A stretch of 49,530 bases of DNA. Source: Endomicrobiia bacterium. Its GTDB lineage: Bacteria; Elusimicrobiota; Endomicrobiia; DTEH01. The first letter of the stretch is position 1. Each line of letters begins with the position of its first letter. The notes under the pieces were generated by a model. That model had not been told where the DNA came from. It did no database searches and was given only the letters and a program-made list of their open reading frames with translations. This document shows positions 9,484-16,566 of the stretch, piece by piece. The stretch is from positions 1 to 49,530 of the forward strand of contig JANXCA010000005.1 of assembly GCA_025060535.1 (NCBI GenBank). Reading direction: 5' to 3'. A program made the position numbers and the translations under genes.

Positions 9484-9948
9484 ATGATTATAGCAATTGC
9501 TTCTGACCATGCTGGATTTAGGATTAAAAAAGAACTGGTTGAGATGTTATCTCAAGAATATAAAGTTATAGATTTTGGAACTTTTTCAGAAGCATCTTGT
9601 GATTATCCTGACTATGCTAAAAAAGTAGCATTGGCTGTCAAAAATAAACAAGCAGATAGAGGTATAATTTTATGTGGAAGTGGTGAGGGTGTTTGTATTG
9701 TGGCTAATAAATTTAAAGGGATTATAGCTGGAGTATGCTACTCAGAAGAGGTGGCAGCACTTTTATCTTCACATAATTTTGCAAATGTGATATGTTTTCC
9801 TACTAGAGTAAAGTTAGAAAAAGAGATAAACTCTGAAATCCTTTATAGATGGACAAAGATATGGATTTCTACACCTAACTCTACTGAAGAAAGACATATA
9901 AGAAGGATAAATAAAATAAAAGAAATTGAAGAGGAAAATTTCAAATGA
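9484..9948 (+). CDS. rpiB: Ribose-5-phosphate isomerase B
   Basis: 154 residues, full length for the RpiB/LacAB family. It interconverts ribose 5-phosphate and ribulose 5-phosphate in the non-oxidative pentose phosphate pathway. SDHAG at residues 7-11 is the family start motif. LCGSGEGVCIVANK (63-76) carries the catalytic cysteine (C64), with Ser in place of the frequent Thr two residues on. SSHNFANV (95-102) matches the family's HN-ANV loop, though the next residues read CFPTR rather than CLGAR. Only 18 nt separate the tRNA from this ATG, so the two are probably co-transcribed. deoC, another enzyme of deoxyribose/ribose phosphate metabolism, lies two genes downstream. Confidence 0.93.
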   Translation: MIIAIASDHAGFRIKKELVEMLSQEYKVIDFGTFSEASCDYPDYAKKVALAVKNKQADRGIILCGSGEGVCIVANKFKGIIAGVCYSEEVAALLSSHNFANVICFPTRVKLEKEINSEILYRWTKIWISTPNSTEERHIRRINKIKEIEEENFK

Positions 9949-10343
9949 AAAACATTTTATATTTACCATTTTTATTATTTTTTATTTATAACATTATTTA
10001 TTCAAAGGATTTAGAACAGGCAATAGAACTAATAAATAAAAGTAAATTTGATGATGCAATAGAAATTTTAGAAACAAATGGTGAAGAAAATGATATATTG
10101 TTAGCTATTGCATATTTAGGTAAGAAAGATTTCAAAACAGCAAAAGTGTTTGCCTTAGAGTACTGGTTAAAAAATGAAAATGATATATTAGCTAATTATA
10201 TTCTTGCTTTAATTTCAGAAGAGTTAAAAGAATATGATGTAGCTTTGATGTATTGGGAGGTAGTTTCTAAAAACGCAAAGAGTTCATCTTTGAAACAACT
10301 TTCAAAAAAACATATAGAAGTTTTAAATAAATTAAAAAGATGA
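9945..10343 (+). CDS. Small exported TPR-like protein
   Basis: 132 residues, ATGA overlap with rpiB. The first ~20 residues (MKNILYLPFLLFFIYNIIYS) form a signal peptide with no lipobox cysteine. The rest is helical, with a TPR-like pattern: ELINKSKFDDAIEILE, then AYLGKKDFKTAKVFALEYWLKN, then SEELKEYDVALMYWEVV. This suggests two to three short repeats forming a periplasmic protein-binding scaffold. No catalytic residues are evident. It overlaps the next gene, a lipoprotein-like protein, by 4 nt, so the pair may act together at the envelope (inference). Confidence 0.7.
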   Translation: MKNILYLPFLLFFIYNIIYSKDLEQAIELINKSKFDDAIEILETNGEENDILLAIAYLGKKDFKTAKVFALEYWLKNENDILANYILALISEELKEYDVALMYWEVVSKNAKSSSLKQLSKKHIEVLNKLKR

Positions 10344-10903
10344 AAATTTTGAAATTTGTTTTAACAATCTGTTTGTTAGGGTTTTTCTGCTGTGTTACAC
10401 CAAAGGGTGTTTTCTATAAGGGATTTGAGCTAAGTCGTATTGCGGTGATATCTGTAGATGAGTTTAAGCCTTATGGAAATTATTCTTCAAGCGGAGAGAT
10501 GATTAGGGATTTAATAATTCAACATCTTCTTAGAAGAAACTTTATTGTAAAAGATGCTAAATCAGAGGATGTAGAATATGTACTTGTGGGAGCTGTTATA
10601 AAATTTCAACCAGAGAAAAAATATCTTGTATATATGGGAGAAGAAGATAAACAGATGGTATTAGGTAATATTCTTACAGAAATAAGCGGAAGTTACGTAT
10701 ATAAAATTTCTTCTGCATTTGGACTTAAAAATGCAGAAGTGATTGCTACAAACTCTACTGTTGGAGTTTCTGCTAAACTTATAGAGAAAAAAACAGGTAA
10801 AATTTTATGGAGCAGTTCATTTACCTATGAAGCGCTTACTATAGAAACAGCTGCAGATGTAGTCGCTAATTATTTAGTGACTTCTTTGACAGGAAAAAAA
10901 TAA
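10340..10903 (+). CDS. Probable CsgG/LpoB-like envelope lipoprotein
   Basis: 187 residues. The N-terminus is MKILKFVLTICLLGFFCC, a short hydrophobic signal ending in cysteines 17-18. GFFC is not a good lipobox, so lipidation is uncertain. The body begins RIAVISVDEFKPYGNYSSSGEMIRDLIIQHLLRRNF in adjoining stretches, which follows the CsgG/TolB-N/LpoB style pattern (strand, SGE-I-D, helix, then the strand of a hard-to-predict variant). Near the C-terminus, VSAKLIEKKTGKILWSSSF followed by ETAADVVANYLV is also typical of CsgG-like lipoproteins. I assign only the superfamily. It follows the TPR-like protein with ATGA overlap and precedes deoC by 5 nt. Confidence 0.6.
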   Translation: MKILKFVLTICLLGFFCCVTPKGVFYKGFELSRIAVISVDEFKPYGNYSSSGEMIRDLIIQHLLRRNFIVKDAKSEDVEYVLVGAVIKFQPEKKYLVYMGEEDKQMVLGNILTEISGSYVYKISSAFGLKNAEVIATNSTVGVSAKLIEKKTGKILWSSSFTYEALTIETAADVVANYLVTSLTGKK

Positions 10904-10908
10904 ATTGA

Positions 10909-11544
10909 ATGAATAAAATTTCAAGCTTTATAGAGTATACTAACTTAAAACCCTACGCTACTAAAAAAGATATAATAAGACTTTGTAAACAAGCAATTAA
11001 GTATAATTTTTATGCTGTATGTGTTAATCCTTTTTATGTGAAATTATGCAAAAAAATTTTAGAAGGTACTCCTGTAAAAGTATGTAGTGTTGTAGGATTT
11101 CCGTTAGGAGCTACTACTACAGCAACTAAAGTTTTTGAAGCAAAACAAGCTATTAAGGATGGAGCAGATGAGATAGATGTTGTAGTCAATTTGTCAGCTT
11201 TGAAATCAAACGATTTAAAAAGTGTATATAAAGAAATAAAAACCTTACGTGAAGTTACTAAAAATAAAGTTTTAAAGTTGATAATAGAGACATGTTATCT
11301 TACAAAAGAAGAAAAAATTAAAATATGTAATATAGCAAAAAAAGCAAAAGTCGATTTTATAAAAACATCTACAGGATTTGGTAAATCTGGTGCTAAAGAG
11401 TCAGATGTTAGATTGATTAAATCTATTGTGGGAGAAAAAATAGGAATAAAAGCATCAGGTGGAATAAAAAATAAAAAAACAGCTTTAAAAATGATTAAAT
11501 TAGGTGCCACTCGTATAGGTACCTCTTCATTAATTAAGGACTAG
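10909..11544 (+). CDS. deoC: Deoxyribose-phosphate aldolase
   Basis: 211 residues, normal for DeoC, which cleaves 2-deoxyribose 5-phosphate to glyceraldehyde 3-phosphate and acetaldehyde. Visible motifs: IEYTNLKPYAT (8-18, usually IDHTLLKP), VVGFPLGATTT (61-71), ADEIDVVVN (86-94) with the general acid/base Asp, DFIKTSTGFG (149-158) with Schiff-base Lys152, and IKASGGI (180-186) with the second active-site Lys181. All catalytic residues are present. It sits between an envelope lipoprotein and the GGDEF protein, so the operon mixes nucleoside-sugar metabolism with envelope and signalling genes. Confidence 0.95.
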   Translation: MNKISSFIEYTNLKPYATKKDIIRLCKQAIKYNFYAVCVNPFYVKLCKKILEGTPVKVCSVVGFPLGATTTATKVFEAKQAIKDGADEIDVVVNLSALKSNDLKSVYKEIKTLREVTKNKVLKLIIETCYLTKEEKIKICNIAKKAKVDFIKTSTGFGKSGAKESDVRLIKSIVGEKIGIKASGGIKNKKTALKMIKLGATRIGTSSLIKD

Positions 11545-11549
11545 ATTTT

Positions 11550-12983
11550 ATGATTCATAAATGGGAAATAAAACCATTTAAAGAGAGAGAAAAAGTAGAA
11601 TATAGAATAAGAATAAAAGCACAAGAAGAAGATCTTCAACAGTTAAAGGAGTTTTTAAAAGAGAATAAAATAGAAATATCAAAAGAATTTCCTTCTTTAA
11701 GTACAGAATTTAATTATGTTCTGTATATAAGTAAAGTTTCTTTAGAAAATGTAAATAAGTTATCTTTATTACTTAAAAACTTATGCAATGATGGAAGTTT
11801 TATAGAAGAAACTACTTCTTGTAAAGATGAAGCTAACGGGTTAAAATACTTATATGAGGTACTTAAAGGAATGTATGAACTACCGGTAATTGGTGATAAT
11901 AAAAATTTAAAGGAAGAATACTATGATATCTTAAAAGAGGCTAGTAAGATGATATCTTCTATTACAGATTTTAGTCAACTTACAAAGATGCTTTTTAAGA
12001 TATCGCATCAATTAAATTATGATAAAGTAGTTATACTTCTTAGAGATGAAGATATGTTTAGTTTTGTAGATGGATATGGGATAGATAAAAGTATAACTGG
12101 TTTGTATAAGTTAGACCTGAGTATAGGTGAGATGATAAAAGATTTAGGTAAAATTATAAGAAAGGAAGAAATACCTATAGAAATTCTTAATACCCAGGAG
12201 ATATTTAAGATATTCCCAGTTGGAATTATAATTTCTTTGATTTCTGAAAAAGAAACAGAGGGCTTTATATTATTGAATGAAAAATCTTATTCTACAAAAG
12301 ACATAAGATATGATTTTGATTTATTAGAAATTATATCTTCACAAATTTCTTCTGTAATAAAAAATTTTCGTTTGTCAAAAGAAGCTATTACAGATACTTT
12401 AACAGGCACATATAGATATAACTACTTTATAAGAAGACTAAATGAGGAAATTTATAGAAGTGAATTGTATAAACACCCTTTAAGTTTATTAATGATAGAT
12501 TTAGATAATTTTAAAATAATAAATGACACTTATGGACATCAGGTGGGCAATGTAGTGTTAAGAGAAGTAGGTAGGATACTAAAAGAAAATACGAGAGTAA
12601 GTGATATTGTATGTCGTTATGGAGGAGATGAATTTGCTATAATTTTTCCTGAAACAAATATAGATGAAGCATTGAAGTCTGCAGAGATATTGAAAGAACA
12701 TATAAATAGTGTGGTTAAAATTACAAATGAATTACGACAGAAAATAGAAAAACTTGGATTAGAAATGACCTCAAAAATTTTTAATCCAAAAATTGTTGAT
12801 ACTGAACTAAAGGTTACTGCTTCTATGGGTTTAGCTTTTATAACTGGCAAAGAGAATAGAAGGATTACTGTAGAAGAGTTTGTTAATTATGCTGATAAAG
12901 CTTTATATTTATCTAAAGTAGAAGGAAAAAATAAAATAAGTATATGGAATGAAGAAGAAATCACAAAATTTTTAAATGAATAA
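11550..12983 (+). CDS. Diguanylate cyclase: novel N-domain + GAF + GGDEF
   Basis: 477 residues, no membrane segment, so cytoplasmic. Residues 1-90 form a small alpha/beta domain (MIHKWEIKPF start, EEDLQQLKEFLKENK helix, ETTS end) that is also at the N-terminus of the DnaA-like protein at 14794. Its strand/helix order suggests a ferredoxin-like beta-alpha-beta-beta-alpha-beta fold. Residues ~125-275 look like a GAF sensor. GGDEF spans ~282-465: DTLTGTYRYNYF, DLDNFKIINDTYGH, the active-site GGDEF at 358-362, and NYADKALYLSKVEGKN. The inhibitory I-site RxxD (R349-D352) lies exactly five residues before GGDEF, so c-di-GMP feedback is expected. About 20 extra residues (~392-415) interrupt the usual path before VTASMGLAF. 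It is predicted to make c-di-GMP in response to a GAF ligand. pilT follows by 15 nt. Confidence 0.9.
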   Translation: MIHKWEIKPFKEREKVEYRIRIKAQEEDLQQLKEFLKENKIEISKEFPSLSTEFNYVLYISKVSLENVNKLSLLLKNLCNDGSFIEETTSCKDEANGLKYLYEVLKGMYELPVIGDNKNLKEEYYDILKEASKMISSITDFSQLTKMLFKISHQLNYDKVVILLRDEDMFSFVDGYGIDKSITGLYKLDLSIGEMIKDLGKIIRKEEIPIEILNTQEIFKIFPVGIIISLISEKETEGFILLNEKSYSTKDIRYDFDLLEIISSQISSVIKNFRLSKEAITDTLTGTYRYNYFIRRLNEEIYRSELYKHPLSLLMIDLDNFKIINDTYGHQVGNVVLREVGRILKENTRVSDIVCRYGGDEFAIIFPETNIDEALKSAEILKEHINSVVKITNELRQKIEKLGLEMTSKIFNPKIVDTELKVTASMGLAFITGKENRRITVEEFVNYADKALYLSKVEGKNKISIWNEEEITKFLNE

Positions 12984-12998
12984 TAAGATAAAGAGACT

Positions 12999-14081
12999 AT
13001 GAAAACAAATATAGATCAACTACTACAACTTATGGTAAAAAAAGGAATTTCTGATATTCATTTTAAAGCTAACACTTCACCTCTAATTAGGATAAATGGT
13101 AAAATTGTATCTTCTAAGTATGAAAAACTTTCTAAAGAGACGATAGAAAATATAGCTTATGAGTTAATGAATGAAGAACAAAGAAAGATTTTTGAACAAG
13201 AGTATGAGTTGGATTTTGCTTATTCAGTAGAAGGGGTTGCCAGATTTAGAGTAAATGTTTATAGACAGAAGGGGACAATAGCACTGACATTAAGAGTGAT
13301 TCCTTTAGAAATAAAATCTTTTAAAGAATTAAATTTACCAGAGGATGTTTTAAAAAAGTTAGCAAGTGAACCAAGGGGTTTGATACTTATAGCAGGTATT
13401 ACTGGTTCGGGCAAAACCACAACGCTAAATGCTATGTTAAATTATATAAATGAGAATTTTGAGTATAATATAATCACTATAGAAGATCCGATAGAATATT
13501 ATCATACTGATAAAAAGTCATCTATTTCTCAGAGAGAAATAGGTTCTGATACAAAATCTTTTAAAAATGCACTTAAGTATGTATTAAGACAAGATCCAGA
13601 TGTTGTTGTTATAGGTGAAATGCGTGATTTTGAGGCTATTTCTGCTGGTATTACTGCAGCTGAGACAGGTCATTTAGTTCTCTCTACAATTCATACAATT
13701 GATGCTGTACAAACAATTGATAGAATAATAGATAGCTATCCTCCTCATCAACAAAAACAAGCAAGAGTACAGATTTCTAATGTATTAAAAGGTATAGTGG
13801 CACAAAGATTATGTAATTTAAAAGATGGTTCAGGAAGAATACCTGCTGTTGAGGTTCTTATAGGAACTTCTTTTGTAAGAAAACTTATATTAGAGAACAA
13901 AACTCAAGAGCTTTATAAGGCTATGGAAGCTGGAGAGTATTATATGATGAATACTTTTGATCAGTCTCTGCTTAAGTTATATAATTCGGGATTAATTACA
14001 TTTGAAGAGGCATTAGATAAAGCTACAAATCCTGAAGACTTACAATTAAAACTTCGTGGAATTTCTCAGATAAGAGGTTAA
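12999..14081 (+). CDS. pilT: Type IV pilus retraction ATPase PilT
   Basis: 360 residues, typical PilT length. This hexameric motor at the inner-membrane pilus base depolymerises the pilus for twitching, adhesion or DNA uptake. Visible: N-terminal PAS-like region with SDIHFKA (18-24); Walker A GITGSGKT (133-140, Ile in place of the common Pro); Asp box ITIEDPIEY (159-167); Walker B VVIGEMRD (203-210); His box HLVLSTIHT (225-233); and the conserved ISNVLKGIVAQRL region. The absence of an N-terminal PilB-type domain argues for PilT rather than PilB. No other pilus gene is nearby, so the flanking GGDEF, 235-residue and DnaA-like genes are the best candidates for regulators. Confidence 0.93.
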   Translation: MKTNIDQLLQLMVKKGISDIHFKANTSPLIRINGKIVSSKYEKLSKETIENIAYELMNEEQRKIFEQEYELDFAYSVEGVARFRVNVYRQKGTIALTLRVIPLEIKSFKELNLPEDVLKKLASEPRGLILIAGITGSGKTTTLNAMLNYINENFEYNIITIEDPIEYYHTDKKSSISQREIGSDTKSFKNALKYVLRQDPDVVVIGEMRDFEAISAGITAAETGHLVLSTIHTIDAVQTIDRIIDSYPPHQQKQARVQISNVLKGIVAQRLCNLKDGSGRIPAVEVLIGTSFVRKLILENKTQELYKAMEAGEYYMMNTFDQSLLKLYNSGLITFEEALDKATNPEDLQLKLRGISQIRG

Positions 14082-14089
14082 CTAATAAA

Positions 14090-14797
14090 GTGGATTATAA
14101 AGATAAAAAAGTTGAAGAGATATTAGAAGAGTTAAAAACTGTCTTAGATTCTATCACTAAATCAGGTAGTAAAACATTACAAGAGGAAGGTTTTAAAAAA
14201 ATAGAAAATATAAAAAATGTTTTAAAATCGGAAGATATAGAAGTAAAAGCTGAAGAACAAATCTTTTCTAAAAACAAATTAGATTCGACAGAATCATTGT
14301 TATCTAAAGGTGAGAAGCAAAAAGATGAGAAAGAAAATATAATAAAAGAAAAAACATCATCAGATGATAAGACAAAAAAGGACGAAAAGACAATTTTACA
14401 GGATAGAAAAGATGAAAAGTTGTTAATAAAAACTATGCTTGTATTTCCATCAATTTTGCAAGATGCTAAAAATGAATTTTTTGATAATATAAATTCTACT
14501 TTAAAACGTGTTAGCAAAAAAAATATAGAGATTATAAGTGAAGCATGTGTTGGTTATAATTCTTTAGGTAAAGATGTTTTTTTGCAATATAATTTGATAA
14601 TTGAAAAAATAAAAATTTATAATTTAAGTGTTTTTATTTTAATAGTAAATGAAAATACTCCTGAAGTTGAGGAATTTATTAAGAAAATTTCTTCATTTGT
14701 TCTTTTAGCAAAGAGTATAAGCACAAAAGAATTAAAAATGAAGTCTACATATTTAGATCTTTCTATAGATTTACTTTTAACTATAAAACAACAATGA
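14090..14797 (+). CDS. Unrecognised protein; charged linker plus alpha/beta domain shared with DnaA-like neighbour
   Basis: 235 residues from a GTG start at 14090, 8 nt after pilT; no earlier start is available. Residues 1-50 are helical, 50-112 are a Lys/Glu/Asp/Ser-rich, probably disordered linker, and 112-235 form a folded domain. Its strand/helix order (IKTMLVFP; long helix; IEIIS; helix; LSVFILIV; helix; [20 protein letters not shown]) follows the C-terminal domain of the DnaA-like protein at 14794, which ends [14 protein letters not shown]. The two appear to be paralogous domains. No catalytic residues stand out. The gene overlaps the DnaA-like gene as ATGA, so stoichiometric translation is likely. 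A partner or adaptor of the DnaA-like ATPase is the simplest guess. No function is assigned. Confidence 0.78.
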
Positions 14798-16566
14798 TTT
14801 CTGCTTGGGAATTAAAATATTTTTCAACTGAGAAATATCCAAACAGGTATAGACTAAGAATTAGGTGTGCTTTAGAAGATTTAGAAGAGTTATGTAATTT
14901 TCTTAAGGATGAATTAAGTTTGGACATTTCTCCGCCTTTTAATGTTTTATCTTCAGATTATAATATAGGTATTTTTATATATGACTTACCAGTAAATATA
15001 AAAAACAAACTTGTAGACAAAATGTTTTCTATTTGTAAAAATGGGATAGTTGAGGATACTACATCTTTGTCTAATGAAAATCCTCAACAGCAAAAAGTTT
15101 CAAAAAAAGACACTTTTCCTGATGATTTAGGAAGTGTACTTACTGAGTTGGTTGAACAATTAAGTTCAAGAGCAACCGAAGAAGAAAAAGTTTCTAAACA
15201 AAGTATTTTTAGTGGTATGCCTTTAAATCCTAAATTTACTTTTGAGAATTTTGTTGTAGGAGCTAACAACAGGTTTACTCACGCTGCTGCTTTAGCTGTA
15301 GCAGAAAATCCTGGTAAAGCATATAATCCATTGTTTATATATGGTGGTGTAGGATTAGGTAAAACTCATCTTATGCAAGCAATAGGGCATTATATTAAGA
15401 AAAAAAGACCTCTGCTAAAAGTTGTGTATATTCCGGCTGATAAATTTGTTACACAGGTAATAGAAGCAATAAAAGCTGGTAATATTCAGATGTTAAGAGA
15501 TGCTTATATAAATGTAGATGTTTTATTAGTAGATGATGTTCAATTTATGGCTGGCTCTGAATCTACACAAGAGGAGTTTTTCCATATATTTAATACATTA
15601 CATCAATATGGAAAACAAATAGTTCTTACAAGTGACAGGCCACCAAAACTTTTATCTACTCTTGAAGACAGATTAAGATCCAGATTTGAATGGGGTCTTA
15701 TTGCTGATATAAAATCTCCTTCTTTAGAAACAAGAGTCGCTATTCTTAAAAAGAAGGGAGAAGAAGAGCATGTTAATGTAGATGATAATATTCTTTTATA
15801 TATAGCTTCTAAATTAAAGTCAAATATTAGAGAACTTGAAGGATTTCTTAAAAGAATCACAGCATATGCTACCTTGAATAACACACCTATAAATATGGAG
15901 TTGGTCAAACAACTTATGAGTGAGTTGTTGCCTGAGGAAGAGCTTACAGAAGAAGAGAAAGCATTATTAGAAACTAAAAAAGAAAAAATTGAAGAAAAAC
16001 CTAAAGAAGAAATAAAACCGCCACAGGAAGTTCCTACTCCTTCTCAGGTAAAACAGAAAGAAGTTCAAACAATTTCTACAGAACAGATATATAATTCAGT
16101 ACAACCAACCCAACAAGTATCGTCTACCAAACAAAATATTTTAGAGGATCAAAAGTTTTATCAGGATTATGAAACAGGAGTAAATGTAGTAGAAGCAGCA
16201 TTTTTTTATCCTGAAGGTAAAATAGAGGAACTCAATTTAGTAAAACAAAAATTTGCTGAAATTATAAAAAAACATAATTTAAAATATAAATTAATAACAG
16301 CATTTGACAGACCATATATGTTAGAAAATATCAACTACAGGTTATTTGTAGAATTGTGCAAAACAAATAAAGTTAACATTTGTATAGTAATCTCTCCTCC
16401 TCCTAACAGTAACATTTCAGCGGAAGAATTATATAATAACCTTTTACCATTAATGGAGTCAGAAAATATTAGATTAGAATATATTTATTGGAAAGAAATA
16501 ACCAAAGAATATAGATATTTAAACCTGGCCTTAGATATTGCCTTGTCTAGATTTAAAATAATATAG
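14794..16566 (+). CDS. DnaA-derived AAA+ ATPase lacking the DNA-binding domain
   Basis: 590 residues. Residues 1-90 match the N-domain of the GGDEF protein at 11550. Residues ~145-375 are a clear DnaA-type AAA+ core: [12 protein letters not shown], Walker [10 protein letters not shown] (184-192), the DnaA-specific insert between Walker A and B, Walker B LLVDDVQF (244-251), sensor 1 LTSD (278-281), LEDRLRSRF with Arg297 as the candidate Arg finger, and sensor 2 NIRELEG (344-350). The insert carries LRDAYI, where DnaA has an FRxxYR-type motif for single-stranded DNA, so that function may be lost. DnaA domain IV (helix-turn-helix with a DHTTV-like motif) is absent. Residues ~385-460 are a low-complexity Glu/Lys/Pro/Gln linker, and 463-590 an alpha/beta domain like that of the preceding protein. 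It is not Hda: it is too long and has no clamp-binding QL-LP motif. It is unlikely to be the replication initiator; a c-di-GMP/pilus regulatory ATPase is inferred. Confidence 0.85.

Follow-up and report, generated by a model that had tools for sequence, protein, structure and literature searches.

What does a relative of DnaA, a protein normally tied to the start of replication, do beside the gene of a pilus-type ATPase? The question is raised by a locus of an Endomicrobiia bacterium of the phylum Elusimicrobiota (metagenome-assembled genome, assembly GCA_025060535.1, contig JANXCA010000005.1), from which a stretch of 49,530 nucleotides, called the window below, was analysed. At positions 11,550 to 16,566, four genes encode in turn a diguanylate cyclase with a GGDEF domain, a paralogue of the pilus ATPase PilT (PilT-L), a small protein that we call the adaptor, and the DnaA-like protein itself (DnaAL). 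We find that DnaAL is a DnaA-derived AAA+ ATPase that has kept the ATPase and oligomerisation machinery and lost all tested DNA-contact features, and that its constant context is nucleoside and deoxyribose-phosphate catabolism, which had been overlooked in the first-pass annotation of this DNA. The best-supported reading, to which we assign a probability of roughly 35%, is that DnaAL may be a DNA-free scaffold linking nucleoside-related signalling to a PilU-like accessory ATPase and pilus retraction. If this is true, a lineage-wide paralogue would have put the DnaA ATPase fold to a new use.

A DnaA-type ATPase that lacks the tested DNA-contact features

With 368.9 bits, DnaAL passes the cut-off of the TIGR00362 DnaA equivalog family (343.9 bits). 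It will therefore be annotated automatically as dnaA, and such mislabelling can mislead replication-origin studies in these phyla. A scan of the genome contigs with the whole DnaAL protein returns mostly canonical DnaA, and elsewhere the window genome encodes a DnaA of its own that is full-length and has domains I, III and IV. Across 32 DnaAL proteins there is no variation in the Walker A and B motifs, the arginine finger or sensor II (G187, G189, K190, T191, D247, D248, R297 and R346).

The features that contact DNA are a different matter. A Pfam search of the window DnaAL found no domain I (PF11638, DnaA_N), and the helix-turn-helix of domain IV (PF08299, Bac_DnaA_C) is absent from it at E-values up to 1. 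The initiator-specific motif (ISM) reads GKE[KR]TQ in DnaA and typically [EQ][SA]ESTQ in DnaAL, the window protein having SES where DnaA has K-E-K/R. The first basic position contacting single-stranded DNA (ssDNA) is lysine or arginine in 62 of 62 distinct canonical DnaA proteins, as against 0 of 37 DnaAL. We take the basic contact residues of the ISM to be K188 and R190 of the Aquifex enzyme, a numbering that agrees with our alignment to Aquifex DnaA. A role of DnaAL in DNA uptake through ssDNA binding is disfavoured by the loss of these residues.

Compared with DnaA (TIGR00362, PF00308), DnaAL is thus alike in the AAA+ domain with all its ATPase and oligomerisation motifs, and differs in lacking domains I and IV, in the replaced basic residues and in two new domains. 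It resembles Hda, a DnaA-derived regulator, in being a DnaA relative without a DNA-binding domain, but it is much nearer to DnaA (its match to Hda is 112 bits), carries extra N- and C-domains and stands in a metabolic and pilus context. Since domain IV is gone, ATP-dependent assembly of DnaAL without DNA would be the natural expectation. The earlier suggestion that the protein forms nucleotide-dependent assemblies off DNA is consistent with this combination of motifs kept and contacts lost.

Another option, also raised in the first-pass annotation, is that DnaAL connects DNA uptake through pili with the state of replication; it might, for instance, partner DnaA in the manner of Hda. Mixed DnaA-DnaAL oligomers are conceivable because the DnaA-type AAA+ domain retains an intact arginine finger. 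However, a protein with neither domain I nor domain IV nor the basic ssDNA-contact residues, surrounded by metabolic and not by replication genes, makes this explanation very improbable.

The gene run and its shared domains

The four genes had been described as adjacent, with gaps of at most 15 nt or an ATGA overlap, and the mechanically called open reading frames agree with this exactly: they are co-directional on the forward strand, with 15 nt, then 8 nt, then the ATGA overlap between them. They had also been put forward as a candidate system of their own, but the block does not stand alone. The run begins upstream at RpiB, only 5 nt separate the end of DeoC from the GGDEF gene, and the four genes are the last half of a run of eight, the upstream half of which is joined by overlaps or 5-nt gaps. 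In a promoter scan, sites were no more frequent than in shuffled sequence. The features are the following.

9484..9948, +: RpiB/LacAB-type sugar-phosphate isomerase, opening the run (PF02502, E=1.3e-46)
9945..10343, +: small protein resembling tetratricopeptide repeat (TPR) proteins (weak ANAPC3/TPR match), kept between RpiB and DeoC in relatives
10340..10903, +: lipoprotein-like protein (weak GNA1162-like match), kept in relatives
10909..11544, +: DeoC, deoxyribose-phosphate aldolase (PF01791, E=2.6e-19)
11550..12983, +: diguanylate cyclase of 477 aa with N-domain, middle region and GGDEF domain (GGDEF, E=1.2e-37)
11550..11837, +: N-domain of the cyclase, common to DnaAL (profile, E=2.3e-13)
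12999..14081, +: PilT-L, diverged PilT paralogue of 360 aa (pilT_fam, 468 bits)
14090..14797, +: adaptor of 235 aa with a GTG start, a charged linker and a DnaAL-type C-domain (profile-profile comparison)
14794..16566, +: DnaAL of 590 aa with N-domain, DnaA-type AAA+ domain, low-complexity linker and novel C-domain (Bac_DnaA, E=1.1e-70)
15223..15948, +: AAA+ domain of DnaAL with Walker A, Walker B (DDVQ), arginine finger R297 and sensor II R346 (motif alignment)
16162..16557, +: C-domain of DnaAL, without a Pfam family (Pfam search)

Two of these domains tie the genes together. The N-domains of the cyclase and DnaAL are homologous (38% identity, with the profile E-value given above), and the first-pass claim that the small protein shares the C-domain of DnaAL is borne out, by profile-profile comparison only, with 94% probability and E=1.4e-7. 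Neither the N-domain nor the C-domain has a useful Pfam match; for the C-domain, no known family was found in Pfam over 30 members, and none among solved structures by sequence. A likeness of the C-domain to MID/PIWI-type Rossmann domains would be tentative at best. Other genomes have one or two adaptors ahead of DnaAL, several of them bearing both domains, and in locus L063 the N-domain is encoded as a separate gene. One DnaAL of 922 aa (L053:8471-11239) has two tandem N-domains and is apparently an adaptor-DnaAL fusion, which supports the two proteins acting together.

The cyclase has the GGDEF active-site motif, and an RxxD I-site (RVSD) lies upstream of it, so the part of the first-pass annotation concerning cyclic di-GMP synthesis with an intact I-site stands as far as the motifs go. 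It does not extend to the conserved system: the cyclase is found between DeoC and PilT in the window genome only and in no other locus seen, and we do not count it as a core member. A GAF-GGDEF gene lies upstream in the same kind of locus in a genome of the same genus, G043 (L043:7741-8820), with no evidence there for the N-domain. Within the genus, cyclic di-GMP genes are therefore seen near the locus in two cases, which differ in position.

The PilT paralogue

The PilT gene had been read as the pilus retraction motor, and this has to be revised. In a careful tree with ten other PilTs, the PilT proteins of the DnaAL loci form one clade, apart from the housekeeping PilTs of the same genomes, with support of 100/100; in a tree with 42 other PilTs the clade has an approximate likelihood-ratio test (aLRT) value of 100. 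PilT-L clears the cut-off of the pilus-ATPase family by a wide margin, and its Walker A, Asp box, Walker B and His box are all intact. The AIRNLIRE motif is absent; it reads FVRKLILE in the window, and a similar replacement is seen across the whole clade. The motif is missing from PilU as well, a retraction ATPase that depends on PilT (PMC6762196). PilT-L is thus a diverged paralogue that is PilU-like in this respect and not the canonical motor, although in overall sequence most solved PilT chains are nearer to it than PilU is. From both known ATPases, with which it shares the family and the Walker, Asp and His boxes, it differs as a separate clade tied to DnaAL.

The window genome encodes two further PilTs and a PilM. 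Every PilT-L found adjoins DnaAL, the neighbouring DnaAL match being partial in the RIFCSPLOWO2 contig L081. The converse is not true: DnaAL can exist without PilT-L, because in the DnaAL-bearing genome G004 none of all four listed PilTs falls in the locus clade.

Conservation and nucleoside catabolism

We searched 198 Elusimicrobiota genomes, mostly metagenome-assembled, and full-length DnaAL was found in 30 of them, from 16 families. The typical order is TpiA - PduL - RpiB - [shell genes] - DeoC - PilT - adaptor(s) - DnaAL, followed by a GAF histidine kinase - receiver - transketolase - DeoB - purine nucleoside phosphorylase (PNP) - DeoA; adenine deaminase is also found among the neighbours. 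At least two nucleoside or pentose-phosphate genes are present in 26 of the 30 loci, and three of the four with fewer (L046, L051 and L060) are on contigs shorter than 8 kb. RpiB is a neighbour in 19 loci and a histidine kinase in 18, with receiver genes next door. PilT stands directly upstream of the adaptor and DnaAL in 23 of the 29 loci with a readable upstream side. The earlier expectation that the four-gene order recurs in relatives therefore held in part, PilT-adaptor-DnaAL being kept across many families, but not the GGDEF gene.

The order persists between genomes whose DnaAL proteins are only ca 37-50% identical, and also across two phyla (see below). It could in principle be an old metabolic block that carries the pilus and signalling genes as passengers, the order being conserved without functional coupling. 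The run in the window also holds generic neighbours, and the GGDEF gene, the shell genes and PilT come and go among lineages, as such a view would have it. Survival of the order over these distances, together with a PilT paralogue that is found only at the DnaAL site, makes it quite unlikely. Another option considered was a defence system, but PADLOC gave only weak P-loop-type matches and this was rejected.

RecJ is near DnaAL in eight loci. In one of them (L047:6311-8479), RecJ beside DnaAL has an inserted RNase_T (DnaQ-like) exonuclease domain and is possibly a dual-polarity ssDNA exonuclease.

A second phylum

The C-domain profile also finds DnaAL in 15 of the 16 genomes of a separate small phylum. 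Its neighbours there are the adaptor, kinase, receiver, DeoC, shell genes, DeoB, PNP, DeoA and a cyclodeaminase-like gene. PilT is present in 15 of the 16 genomes, as are shell genes.

Two further observations concern this phylum. The formiminotransferase-cyclodeaminase-like gene lies directly before the adaptor and DnaAL (L078:6243-6842, PF04961; L083:7334-7936; L086:681-1274), and the DnaAL proteins (L078:7950-9962, L083:7947-9977, L086:1280-3352) have a linker between the AAA+ domain and the C-domain that carries two zinc-ribbon-like CxxC...CxxC motifs.

Pili and the proposed role

All 30 Elusimicrobiota genomes with DnaAL have PilT (Fisher p=7e-5 over the 198 genomes, uncorrected for relatedness) and a PilM match, which is marginal (E=5.4e-4) in the incomplete genome G147, so that the co-occurrence with pilus genes foreseen in the first-pass annotation is indeed seen. 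The two findings that it had named as speaking against it, genes that are neighbours in no relative and a DnaA-like gene mostly in genomes without type IV pili, were not made, since the order is kept in relatives and all these genomes have PilT and PilM. Pili are also a steadier partner of DnaAL than microcompartments, shell genes being present in only 12 of the 30 genomes. The most constant neighbour of all is nucleoside catabolism.

In the scaffold reading that we prefer, DnaAL would form nucleotide-dependent assemblies and no longer act on DNA, and its N- and C-domains may dock adaptors, signalling proteins and PilT-L. The module would be expressed together with the nucleoside and deoxyribose-phosphate catabolism genes and could match type IV pilus retraction, whether for surface behaviour or for capturing DNA-rich material, to the supply of nucleosides. 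In most lineages the GAF histidine kinase with its receiver would provide the signal; in the window genome this would fall to a diguanylate cyclase that had gained the N-domain of DnaAL. The first-pass proposal of control over pilus retraction or surface behaviour is in line with the PilT-DnaAL association, but it missed the metabolic context and relied on cyclic di-GMP, which is not a conserved part. The gene order, domain sharing, motif changes and co-occurrence are observed; from them we infer the docking, which way regulation runs and how pili are affected.

It is important to point out that several findings weigh against this reading. Six Elusimicrobiota loci have DnaAL without an adjacent PilT, and in the second phylum DnaAL likewise lacks an adjacent PilT while the metabolic neighbours are kept. 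One DnaAL genome of that phylum, G212 (ca 1.0 Mb and possibly incomplete), shows no PilT. The co-occurrence itself is weak evidence, because PilT is found in 147 of the 198 genomes and its absences are mostly those of one reduced lineage.

The group may link surface pili to nucleoside feeding. A more specific form would be pilus-powered nutrient acquisition, in which the DNA-independent, DnaA-derived scaffold couples a specialised retraction ATPase to taking up and degrading extracellular DNA or nucleosides; we regard this as unlikely enough to be put forward only tentatively. With the same reserve, one locus would then unite pilus retraction with signalling and, in certain lineages, with the metabolism of a microcompartment. 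What makes it of interest is a DnaA paralogue that keeps company with nucleoside catabolism across phylum-level distances, and in many cases with a paralogous pilus ATPase too, which offers a testable case of pili tied to feeding.

A further explanation, overlapping with the scaffold reading, is that DNA serves as food. Pili aided by PilT-L would bring in extracellular DNA, nucleases and phosphorylases would degrade it, deoxyribose-5-phosphate would pass via DeoC to central metabolism, and DnaAL would couple retraction to uptake. The neighbours cover PNP, DeoA, adenine deaminase, DeoB, DeoC, RpiB, TpiA and transketolase, the nearby RecJ genes and the extra exonuclease domain in the one examined would fit, and for sugar-phosphate-utilising (SPU) microcompartment loci a role in DNA catabolism has been predicted (PMC4207490, PMC8217296). 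Nearly all these genomes encode ComEC, but it is found in 137 of 141 good genomes with or without DnaAL, so that we discarded it as non-discriminating. The ssDNA contacts of DnaAL are moreover lost, and among the products of the loci we recognised neither a secreted nuclease nor a DNA receptor. We consider this explanation attractive but unlikely.

The microcompartment link

The window locus holds both the DeoC-type aldolase (PF01791) and RpiB (PF02502) by which SPU loci are recognised. No shell gene (PF00936) is found in the window genome, whereas G089, G039 and G054, which belong to its family, have them. The locus of G089, from the same genus, carries BMC-H, BMC-P and PduS-like genes and is therefore an SPU-type microcompartment locus. 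Several relatives resemble such loci in DeoC and RpiB, shell proteins, PduL, a PduS-like protein and TpiA; the window genome and many relatives differ in having no shell genes. The searched literature on SPU loci makes no mention of PilT, DnaA or pili in them.

These findings bear on the main rival, according to which DnaAL, adaptor, kinase and receiver regulate or organise the nucleoside-catabolism enzymes or an SPU microcompartment with no role in pili, PilT-L being a recruited soluble hexameric ATPase. The second phylum, with its metabolic neighbours and kinase/receiver genes kept in the absence of an adjacent PilT and its nearly universal shell genes, is what one would expect from it, as is a PilT-L without AIRNLIRE and outside the housekeeping clade. 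However, 18 of the 30 Elusimicrobiota DnaAL genomes, including that of the window, have no shell gene, and at least 35 shell-bearing genomes, most of those in the phylum, have no DnaAL. PilT-L is also closest to solved PilT retraction ATPases and far above the pilus-ATPase cut-off. We therefore hold this explanation to be doubtful, though a serious competitor, and a general role of DnaAL as microcompartment organiser was rejected on the low share of DnaAL genomes with shell genes.

Finally, two observations on the shell-bearing and related loci can be added. In three shell-bearing loci (L042:5653-7134, L044:5723-7219 and L055:3591-5102), DeoC has an extra N-terminal region of ca 260-280 aa, which has no Pfam family in L042 and might be a targeting or encapsulation domain. 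A protein of ca 95-105 aa without a Pfam family (L055:5586-5867, L042:7489-7806) is conserved in 11 loci, its gene lying either beside that of BMC-H or immediately before PilT or DnaAL.

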